NCBI RefSeq assembly: GCF_016722925.1
Contig: NZ_JAEQNC010000013.1
Coordinates: 1-64,000 of the forward strand
DNA length: 64,000 bases
Direction: 5' to 3'
From: Phytoamicus setariae
GTDB lineage: Bacteria > Pseudomonadota > Alphaproteobacteria > Rhizobiales > Rhizobiaceae
The notes under the pieces were generated by a model, which worked only from the letters and a program-made list of their open reading frames with translations, was not told where the DNA came from and did no database searches. Shown piece by piece: positions 8,808 through 27,653 of the stretch; position 1 is the first letter of the stretch; each line of letters begins with the position of its first letter. The translations under genes were made by a program, and so were the position numbers.

Positions 8808-10031
8808 TCAGGCTGCTGCCAATTCAGATCGGATAAGGCTGCCAAGCCGAGAGATGCCCGTCTCGATCATCTCGTCGGATGCACAGGAGAAGCTCAGCCG
8901 CAGCGTATTCTGGCCACTGCCATCGGCATGGAAAGCCCTGCCGGGAACGAAGGCAACCTTGGCTTCGGCGATTGCCTTGGCCAACAATGCTGCGCCATCC
9001 ATGCCCTTGGGCAGCGTCACCCAGACGAACATCCCGCCTTCGGGCTTTGTCCATTCGACACCGGCCGGCATCGACTTTTGCAGCGCCGCGAGCATCTGGT
9101 TGCGGCGATGGCTGTAGACCCGTTTGATCTTTTCGACCTGTTCGGCAAACACCCCGTCGGCGACCTTGCCTATTACCATCTGGTTAATGGTCGAGGAGTG
9201 CAGATCGGCCGCCTGCTTGATCAGCACCAGCTTGCGAACCACTTCCTCGTTGGCAACAACCCAGCCGACGCGCAGACCGGGTGCCAGCGTCTTGGAGAAG
9301 CTTCCGCAATAGAAGGTGCGGGTCTTGTTGATATCGCCGCCATGGCGGGCGATGTCGAGCGCCAGAATCGGCGGAACGGTTTCGCCGTCATAACGCAGCG
9401 CCTGATAGGCGGCGTCCTCTACAACAGGTATATCGAGCGTTTCAGCCAGGTCGAGCAGCCATTCGCGCTCGCCCTTGGTCATGGTTTCGCCAGTCGGATT
9501 GTGGAATTCGGCCACCGCATAGGCGAACTTCACCCGGCCGCCTGCCTTCTCCGCGGCGTCGACATAGGACGAAGCGGGGCGATTGCTCATCGGCAGCAGC
9601 TTGTCGTAGGTAGGCTCATAGGCGTTGAACGCGCCGAGTGCGCCCATATAGGTCGGCCATGTCACCAATGCGGTGTCGTTGGGCGACAAAAACAGCTTGC
9701 CGAGATAGTCCAACACCTGCTGGGAACCGGACGTGATGAACACGTTGGTCGCATTGCAGGGAATGCCGATCTTGGCCATTTCCTTGACGATCCAGTCGCG
9801 TAGCGGCTTGTAGCCTTCGCTGACGGAATATTGCAGCGCCGCGTCGCCCTGATCGCCCGCCAGCACCTCGCCATAGGCCTTGCTCACGGCTTCCTTGGGG
9901 AAAAGCGCGACATCGGGAATACCTCCCGCAAACGAAATAATATCCGGCTGCTCAAGCAGTTTCAGCAGTTCGCGAATTTCCGACGCCTTCATGCGCATCG
10001 CGCGCGAGGCAAAAACCTTTTCCCAATCCAT
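8808..10031 (-). CDS. PLP-dependent aminotransferase, class I/II (LysN/2-aminoadipate type)
   Basis: A 407-residue fold-type I aminotransferase. Visible are the substrate loop IISFAGGIPDVALFP (residues 30-45), the cofactor loop TSGSQQVLDYLGKLF, the Asn-Pro of AEFHNPTGETM, the Asp of VVEDAAYQAL, and the Schiff-base lysine in CGSFSKTLAPGLRVGW, followed by the Arg of LRLSFS that binds the substrate carboxylate. It resembles the aminotransferase half of MocR proteins but has no helix-turn-helix. Substrate could be an aromatic, branched-chain or 2-aminoadipate-type amino acid. GAGG precedes the start at good spacing, and a strong promoter with an overlapping dyad lies upstream. The same dyad precedes a LysE exporter 16 kb away. 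Confidence 0.88.
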   Translation of the reverse strand: MDWEKVFASRAMRMKASEIRELLKLLEQPDIISFAGGIPDVALFPKEAVSKAYGEVLAGDQGDAALQYSVSEGYKPLRDWIVKEMAKIGIPCNATNVFITSGSQQVLDYLGKLFLSPNDTALVTWPTYMGALGAFNAYEPTYDKLLPMSNRPASSYVDAAEKAGGRVKFAYAVAEFHNPTGETMTKGEREWLLDLAETLDIPVVEDAAYQALRYDGETVPPILALDIARHGGDINKTRTFYCGSFSKTLAPGLRVGWVVANEEVVRKLVLIKQAADLHSSTINQMVIGKVADGVFAEQVEKIKRVYSHRRNQMLAALQKSMPAGVEWTKPEGGMFVWVTLPKGMDGAALLAKAIAEAKVAFVPGRAFHADGSGQNTLRLSFSCASDEMIETGISRLGSLIRSELAAA

Positions 10032-10063: not shown

Positions 10064-10106
10064 AATACACCGTGAAACGCATATTATGTCAATATTACTG
10101 ACCTAA
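10064..10106 (-). promoter_or_regulatory. Sigma-70 promoter with overlapping dyad operator
   Basis: Read on the minus strand, TTGACA (10087-10092) and TGTATT (10064-10069) are separated by exactly 17 bases, a near-consensus promoter for the aminotransferase. The -35 box lies inside a dyad, TTAGGTCA-7 bases-TGACATAA (10084-10106). A factor bound there would block RNA polymerase. The same 23-base dyad, with 2 differences, occurs before the LysE gene at 26666-26690. Confidence 0.75.
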
Positions 10107-10211
10107 TTAGACGGCGTGCGGTGATCACGATTTCTTTCATTTTACCGGCTGCGATCGTGCGTGCATGGACGTCATAGCAGAAAGCAATTGATACGGAGCC
10201 CCCTTGTGTAC

Positions 10212-19637: not shown

Positions 19638-20102
19638 CTAAACGGCGTATCCGACCGGCAACGCCCCGGACTCCTTCAGAGCCTCCATGGATATCGACGC
19701 CGAAACGTCGAACAGTTCGACCTGACGGATGATCTGCTTGTAGATCACATCGTAATGCTCGACACGCGGCAGCACGATCTTGAGAATGTAATCGTGGTTT
19801 CCGGTCAGACGGTGCGCCTCGACGATCTCCGGAATATTCGCAATCGCCCGGTGGAAGGCCGCCAACCAGTCATCGCCATGGCGCGCGGTCTTGACCAGGG
19901 CGAAGACCGTCGTCGGCACGCCCATCTTGGTCCTGTCGAGAACCGCCTTTCTGCCGAGGATATAGCCTTCGCTCTCAAGCCGCAGGATACGGCGCGAACA
20001 GGCCGATACGGACAGGTTGACGATATCTGCAAGCTCGGCAACGCTCATGCCGCCGTCACTTTGCAGCAAACTCAAAATCTTGCGGTCCCGGTCGTCAAGC
20101 AT
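19638..20102 (-). CDS. Lrp/AsnC family transcriptional regulator
   Basis: A 154-residue regulator. The N-terminal winged helix is [20 protein letters not shown] then [20 protein letters not shown], and the C-terminal RAM ligand domain has [18 protein letters not shown]. Length matches the family (about 150-160). Start at 20102 gives the typical [10 protein letters not shown]. It is divergent from an aspartate/glutamate racemase gene, which suggests control of that gene by an amino acid. An inverted repeat of two widely spaced half-sites lies between them, as expected for an octameric Lrp protein. Confidence 0.93.
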
Positions 20103-20146
20103 GCTCGGGCCTCCGTTAGGAAATATAGCTACGCACATCTATTGCG

Positions 20147-26060: not shown

Positions 26061-26654
26061 CTATTTTAGCATCGGCCAGAGCGACAGAACCAGCAGAACG
26101 GCCATCGTGATGTTGAAGCGCTTCAGGCGCACCGGATGCGACAGCCAATCGCGCAGCAGGGCGCCGAAGCCGGCCCAGCCACCCTGGCACGGCAGTGCAA
26201 GCAGAAGGAAGGCAAATGTGACGAGCAGAATCGAGCCAATGGGGTCTTCGGCATTCGCATAAGCCGCCATCGAAGAAACGGCCATCACCCAGGCCTTTGG
26301 GTTCACCCATTGAAACAGGGCAGCAGCCCAAAACCCCATCGGCGCCGATGTCTCCCCGCCCTCGCCCAGCGTCCGTGACGTGCCGATTGACCAGGCGATA
26401 TAAAGAAGGTAGGCGCCGCCGGCGATCTTCAACAAGAGATAGGCGATCGGCACGGCGTGCAACAGCGCCCCCAGACCGAAGCCGCATGCGACCAGAAGGC
26501 TTGCAAAGCCAAGCTCTATGCCGAGCATATGCGGAACCGTCCGTCGAAGCCCGAAATTGACCCCGGAAGCCAGCAACATCATGTTGTTCGGACCGGGCGT
26601 GATCGAGGTTGTAAACGCAAACAGTAGCAGCGAAAGGAATATTTCGGGTGACAT
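26061..26654 (-). CDS. LysE family amino acid exporter
   Basis: A 197-residue inner-membrane transporter with about six hydrophobic helices. The family motif SITPGPNNMMLLASGVNFG is near residues 17-36, followed by GIELGFASLLVACGFGLG, and NPKAWVMAVSS in the middle. LysE proteins export amino acids such as lysine, arginine or homoserine lactones. The start at 26654 has GGAG seven bases upstream. A perfect 9-bp dyad lies in its leader and is nearly identical to that at the aminotransferase gene at 10.1 kb, which suggests a common regulator controlling amino acid turnover and export. Confidence 0.9.
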   Translation of the reverse strand: MSPEIFLSLLLFAFTTSITPGPNNMMLLASGVNFGLRRTVPHMLGIELGFASLLVACGFGLGALLHAVPIAYLLLKIAGGAYLLYIAWSIGTSRTLGEGGETSAPMGFWAAALFQWVNPKAWVMAVSSMAAYANAEDPIGSILLVTFAFLLLALPCQGGWAGFGALLRDWLSHPVRLKRFNITMAVLLVLSLWPMLK

Positions 26655-26665
26655 GGGCTTCTCCG

Positions 26666-26690
26666 GTTAGGTCAATAATACTGACCTAAC
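26666..26690. promoter_or_regulatory. Perfect dyad operator in the LysE leader
   Basis: GTTAGGTCA-7 bases-TGACCTAAC, a 9-bp perfect inverted repeat of 25 bases, ending 12 bases before the LysE start. The minus-strand core TTAGGTCA (bases 23 in total) matches the aminotransferase dyad at 10084-10106 in 21 of 23 positions. Confidence 0.75.
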
Positions 26691-26804
26691 TCCCCGCGTC
26701 CAATGAATAACATTGGAGGGCATCGCACGGAAATTGATTGAAGACCGTTTGACGCCGAACCGACAGGGAATATGCTCAGGCGAACAAGCAACAGGTGAGC
26801 ACGC

Positions 26805-27653
26805 ATGGACAACGACCCGATCCCGACGATTACTTTTCCCGATGGCACGGAAGTGCCGGCGCTCGGCCAAGGCACATGGAACATGGGCGAGAATGCCAGT
26901 CAGGCAAAGGCGGAAATCGACAGCATTCAGGCAGGCATCGACCTCGGCATGACCCTGATCGATACCGCCGAAATGTATGCCGAAGGCGGCGCCGAGATGA
27001 TTGTGGGTCAGGCGATCAAGGGCCGGCGCGACGGGCTTTTCATCGTCAGCAAGGTCTATCCGTGGAATGCCAGCCACAGGGGCACGATCGATGCCTGCGA
27101 GCGCAGCCTTGTGCGCATGGGCATAGAGCGTATCGATCTCTATCTACTCCATTGGCGCGGCGACCACCCGCTGGCCGAGACGGTCCAGGCGTTCGAGACG
27201 CTGAAAGCCGACGGCAAGATCGGCGCCTGGGGAGTCTCCAATTTCGACACCGACGACATGGAAGAACTCCTGACTGTCCCGGGCGGCAAGAATGTTGCCG
27301 CCAATCAGGTGCTCTACAATCTTTCCCGACGCGGCCCGGAATTCGACCTGCTGCCCTGGTGCCAGGACCGCAACATTCCGCTGATGGCCTATTCGCCGAT
27401 CGAACAGGGGCGCATCCTGCGTCATCCCGAACTGATCCGCATCGCCAAGGCCTATCAGGCGACGCCGGCGCAACTGGCGCTCGCCTTCCTGCTGGAACGC
27501 GACGGCGTCATCCCCATCCCCAAGACATCCAGCCGCCAACGGGTCGCAGAAAACCGGGATTGCGTCTCGCTGGATGTCAGCGACGAGGACTGGGCCGTGC
27601 TGGATGCAGCCTTCCCGCCGCCGGCGCGAAAGGTGCCGCTGGAAATGAATTGA
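26805..27653 (+). CDS. Aldo/keto reductase with full catalytic tetrad
   Basis: A 282-residue NADPH-dependent oxidoreductase. The Asp and Tyr are in [14 protein letters not shown] (about residue 50), the Lys in [10 protein letters not shown] and the His in [12 protein letters not shown], so all four catalytic residues are present. The cofactor motif [17 protein letters not shown] is near the end. It belongs to the group of 2,5-diketo-gluconate reductase-like enzymes. Start ATG 26805 has a plausible upstream AACAGG site. Its last codons reappear as a degenerate copy at 28833-28895, past the FkbM gene. Confidence 0.92.

Follow-up and report, generated by a model that had tools for sequence, protein, structure and literature searches.

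In Rhodobacter capsulatus, the gene for the MarR-type regulator PetP is followed by the gene for the OmpR-type response regulator PetR; the locus described here resembles petP-petR in this arrangement. In a search of the open-licence PMC literature, no operator or amino-acid regulon of R. capsulatus PetP was found, no paper was recognised that deals with the operator or the regulon of any PetP-type protein, and pieces of the motif used as queries gave matches that, judged by title, were unrelated. PetP has been described as a MarR protein required for growth by photosynthesis and by respiration (PMC3616918). Within the Rhizobiaceae, LdtR of Liberibacter asiaticus is a MarR protein that binds its own promoter and activates an L,D-transpeptidase gene through the site ATATTCCTTGTATTTTAA, which is unlike the dyad reported below; we considered LdtR as its regulator and rejected it because the published footprint differs from the dyad by eye (PMC3999280). 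A precedent for assigning a MarR regulator to amino-acid degradation genes via conserved sites comes from work on HmgS and other regulators, in which the HmgS regulon covers tyrosine degradation in Alteromonadales and Pseudoalteromonadales, and a word search of that main text returned no PetP, LysE or exporters (PMC5343134).

A dyad before LysE and its two genomic partners

In the window, the 64,000-nucleotide stretch of DNA analysed here, a perfect 9-7-9 dyad, GTTAGGTCA-ATAATAC-TGACCTAAC, lies at 26666..26690 (no strand assigned), 11 nt from the ATG of a gene for a LysE-type amino-acid exporter (26061..26654, minus strand; Pfam LysE, 4.8e-16). An imperfect copy at 10083..10107 (likewise unstranded) precedes a gene for a class I/II aminotransferase, AT1 (8808..10031, minus strand; Pfam Aminotran_1_2, 4.9e-33), with its core at 10084-10106 placed 52 nt upstream of AT1. 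The 23-bp core of the LysE dyad is identical to this site, 16.6 kb away, at 21 of 23 positions and differs at two. The first-pass annotation had described both the perfect repeat directly before LysE and the 21 common core bases and had called chance likeness very unlikely, all of which the sequence bears out: with up to three mismatches allowed in the 18 arm bases, the LysE and AT1 sites are the only two matches in the window, while across 100 shuffles the mean was 0.03 matches and none reached two. A chance origin of the dyads is ruled out by these shuffles together with the reversed-motif controls in the genome, the relatives and the class.

Across the 5.6-Mb genome, the pattern TTANGTCA-N7-TGACNTAA occurs exactly three times, before LysE, AT1 and a MarR gene, and its reversed control not at all. 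A stricter pattern finds the same three places; allowing two mismatches adds four places versus two in the reversed control, and a 24-bp spacing control, one base longer than the 23-bp pattern, has no exact occurrence and two places with two mismatches. The third copy lies outside the window: on contig 32 it falls in the interval between the MarR gene (G000:C32:51245-51766) and the divergently oriented ilvE, which scores above cut-off against a branched-chain aminotransferase model (7.2e-159). Eight base pairs separate the site from the first ATG of the MarR frame, whose true start may be later. The encoded protein matches Pfam MarR_2 above cut-off (1.4e-14) and carries a winged-helix domain, and the next gene encodes an OmpR-type response regulator; we take this pair to be petP-petR, after the Rhodobacter arrangement.

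A consensus scan predicts a promoter-like pair for LysE, TGGACG-16-TATTAT (two such pairs versus 0.3 in shuffles), with its -35 at 26697-26702 and its -10 box at 26675..26680, both on the minus strand and the latter inside the dyad. The same scan returned no AT1 promoter; by eye, the AT1 half-site reads TTGACA, followed 17 nt on by TGTATT, so that the dyad would cover a -35. Divergent genes begin at 26805 on the LysE side (an aldo/keto reductase) and at 10161 on the AT1 side (a DUF4431 match below its cut-off). A further promoter-like pair, TTGACG-16-TATGCT, is found on the plus strand at 26749-26776, before the aldo/keto reductase gene and outside the dyad. One relative's locus (L016) has the site before LysE but lacks a match to the aldo/keto reductase, and another (L013) has it before AT1 and lacks one to the 10161 gene; because the site is kept there without these neighbours, LysE and AT1 are the better candidate targets, and an effect of the dyads on the divergent genes of the window is also possible.

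Conservation and distribution of the site

To score conservation, we used 61 genomes (own, genus, family and order, the own genome included) and, for each protein match, the 320 bp upstream plus 30 bp into the match, counting a site at 12 or more of 14 core positions with A or T allowed at both ends. One AT1 and one LysE were scored with less than 350 bp of sequence, and two matches were excluded from the counts: a second, weaker MarR hit of G040 and, for the AT1 of G001, which has an internal stop, its second piece. The site precedes petP in 53 of 58 matches, own genome included (reversed control 0/58), placing an inverted repeat before the candidate regulator's own gene. It is also conserved before the proposed targets, at AT1 in 20 of 22 matches (reversed control 0/22) and more weakly at LysE, in 13 of 41 (41 places in 39 genomes; reversed control 0/41); shuffled motifs reached 12/14 in 0.15-0.28%. 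AT1 lacks the site in two genomes, G024 and G006, the match in the latter being only 38% identical, and within the own genus five of seven LysE matches carry the site, G001 and G004 being those without. Five of the 58 petP matches have no site before them. At three loci petP and petR are present and the site before petP is lost (L040, L044 and L045); in the corresponding genomes, G022, G025 and G017, AT1 still has its site. Internal stops occur in the petP match G007:C44:45559-46047 and the AT1 match G001:C1:4089479-4090697, which are either broken genes or sequence errors. Thirty of the 58 loci were viewed, with petR in 30/30 and ilvE in 21/30, and because six of the nine loci without a neighbouring ilvE retain the site before petP, the site goes with petP.

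With a looser pattern, and among the matches listed, relatives other than the own genome have at least 21 exact places in 16 genomes: four at petP, four at AT1, two at LysE, one at indolepyruvate ferredoxin oxidoreductase and ten elsewhere, these last ten counting against PetP as the regulator. They comprise one TRAP-type binding protein, two VOC-like, three YitT-like membrane protein, three ROK/sugar-transport-type and one DinB-like gene, names given by eye except for the oxidoreductase and a weak YitT match; only L019 was read among the ROK/sugar sites. The YitT-like gene, with its weak NCBIfam match, has an exact site upstream near 1500-1560 in three own-genus genomes (L020, L021, L300). 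In L019 (G004), at about 1501, TTAAGTCAA...TTGACTTAA stands between what look by eye like a ROK-like and a sugar-binding-protein-like gene, with similar letters in G001 and G002, and is probably another regulator's operator that resembles the site at LysE, AT1 and petP.

We then scanned 289 genomes of the class for exact matches to WTANGTCARYN3RYTGACNTAW and searched the same genomes for petP with a 22-row PetP alignment (cut-off 1e-20). The exact site is present in 72 genomes (reversed control 0) and petP in 155. All 72 site-bearing genomes have petP versus 83 of the 217 others (Fisher 1.8e-24, which is not a true probability since the genomes are related). Among the 72 places listed outside the own genome, 63 lie directly before petP, at 30-156 bp (median 45) from its first aligned residue. 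In the best-scoring 29 petP loci of the 155 genomes, own excluded, ilvE, site, petP and petR occur together in 29/29, and in the best 80 of 588 named petP loci the site is found in 54, ilvE in 42 and petR in 80; most of the 26 without a site before petP come from Rhizobium, Agrobacterium and Neorhizobium. One Sinorhizobium meliloti record (L279) carries the site upstream of petP. Three genomes of one family of the class (G086, G196, G277) have three PetP-family matches each, paralogues that may split the regulon.

The nine listed class places away from petP comprise four at indolepyruvate ferredoxin oxidoreductase (G206, G287, G218, G124), three at glutamate synthase subunits (the large subunit in G189; the small subunit in G284 and G062, divergent there from an undecaprenyl-diphosphatase-like gene), one at an undecaprenyl-diphosphatase-like gene (G319, one side of the site examined) and one at LysE (G093). 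The G062 and diphosphatase names were given by eye, and for G206 and G189 the scan used partial proteins, with scores under the full-length cut-offs. Among the best 30 oxidoreductase relatives, 29 of them scorable, eight have the site at 12/14 or better (reversed control 0); the own genome has no oxidoreductase match at 1e-100 in the search on which the assignments in G287, G218 and G124 rest.

A scan of 249 genomes of the phylum found the exact site in 41 of 88 genomes within the class or closer and in one of 161 outside it. In this one genome, G492, the site overlies the beginning of a MarR gene as listed, whose product is 37% identical to PetP over 122 residues, and a second site (12/14) follows 19 bp further on; an AT1-like gene (33%) is divergent from the MarR gene, a LysE gene (50%) lies 1.3 kb away from it, and the 7.7 kb examined gave no match to petR. 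Eighteen places chosen from the phylum listing fall at AT1 (10), petP (5), G492 (1) and two other genes, by eye GMP-synthase-like and amino-acid-binding-protein-like.

PetP as the candidate regulator

The site is confined to three promoters in its own genome, is conserved among relatives and is linked to a marR gene. On these grounds we consider it highly probable that a PetP-type MarR protein encoded outside the window has the dyad as its operator. Points against this reading are the weaker conservation at LysE (13 of 41, with two of seven own-genus genomes lacking the site there), the petP loci that have no site (5 of 58 relatives, 26 of 80 named loci) and the lack of a scanned promoter at AT1. 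The first-pass annotation had read the two dyads as copies of one regulatory mark with an amino-acid theme and had seen no cognate regulator gene adjoining either, and this much stands. Its candidate, the Lrp-type regulator at 19638-20138 as the protein binding both dyads, does not. That gene lies in the window and encodes a genuine Lrp/AsnC protein (Pfam AsnC_trans_reg, 6.2e-17), and Lrp proteins often control amino-acid genes; Lrp/AsnC regulators have a similar physiological theme but belong to a different protein family, and nothing here links them to the dyad. We regard binding by the Lrp-type protein as very improbable, since no copy of the site within three mismatches is found near its gene, while the one exact copy beyond the window lies at the MarR gene, and of the 72 places listed for the class 63 lie at relatives of that gene.

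Harder to separate is the neighbouring response regulator: if PetR or another protein bound the site, PetP would be just one of the targets, and because petR adjoins petP in every locus viewed (30/30, 80/80 and 29/29), neighbourhood alone cannot distinguish the two. The form of the site speaks against PetR, in that a MarR protein usually has an inverted repeat upstream of its own gene whereas OmpR-type regulators usually bind direct repeats, and in G492 the site stands at a PetP-like gene with no petR match in the 7.7 kb examined; we think such binding unlikely. That the dyad works in the LysE leader as an RNA hairpin or terminator is scarcely credible. If transcribed, it could fold into a 9-bp stem with a 7-nt loop, but it would not be transcribed whole because the predicted -10, from consensus, sits inside it; furthermore, no terminator-like site was found in 26600-26860, and bases outside the pairs (e.g. 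positions 9, 10 and 15) are also conserved.

A structure model of PetP (mean pLDDT 82.6) matches MarR structures, the best being 3s2w (E 1.5e-5), and we take helix 94-107 as its putative recognition helix. Across 22 aligned PetP proteins I92, T93, K94, Q95, S96, L97, R99, V100, L101 and L104 are invariant. In 86 pooled sites the half-sites GTCA/TGAC are nearly fixed, a fit that is partly built in since the sites were chosen by these letters, and an invariant recognition helix is in keeping with them. We infer that a PetP-type dimer would place one recognition helix on each GTCA half-site and that PetP is probably a repressor at the dyads, as suggested by the dyad covering the predicted -10 at LysE and, by eye, the -35 at AT1. 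Occlusion of the -10 box would account for repression at LysE, and the dyad directly before petP would allow autoregulation. The dimer might be released by a ligand linked to amino-acid transamination, be it an amino acid, the corresponding 2-keto acid or an aromatic acid, such that under amino-acid excess aminotransferase and exporter would rise. An aromatic or keto-acid ligand is plausible, no more, because the PDB matches of the model include MarR proteins with bound indole-3-carboxylic, salicylic or 4-hydroxyphenylacetic acid.

The best reading of the predicted PetP regulon is a set of amino-acid transamination and export genes that includes petP itself. MarR regulons are a known kind, and a PetP-type operator with an amino-acid regulon was not found in the literature searched. 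A MarR gene present in 155 of 289 sampled class genomes would thereby gain a specific operator and a predicted regulon, whose targets point directly to candidate ligands. Tentatively, and with more doubt than belief, we suggest that PetP-type MarR proteins could be an ancient equivalent of Lrp in the Alphaproteobacteria. Such a regulator, whose operator is nearly fixed, would sense a transamination product (e.g. a branched-chain or aromatic 2-keto acid), would set, differently from lineage to lineage, amino-acid export, glutamate synthase, indolepyruvate ferredoxin oxidoreductase and aminotransferases, and would control the neighbouring PetR. If true, this would tie amino-acid status to the targets of PetR.
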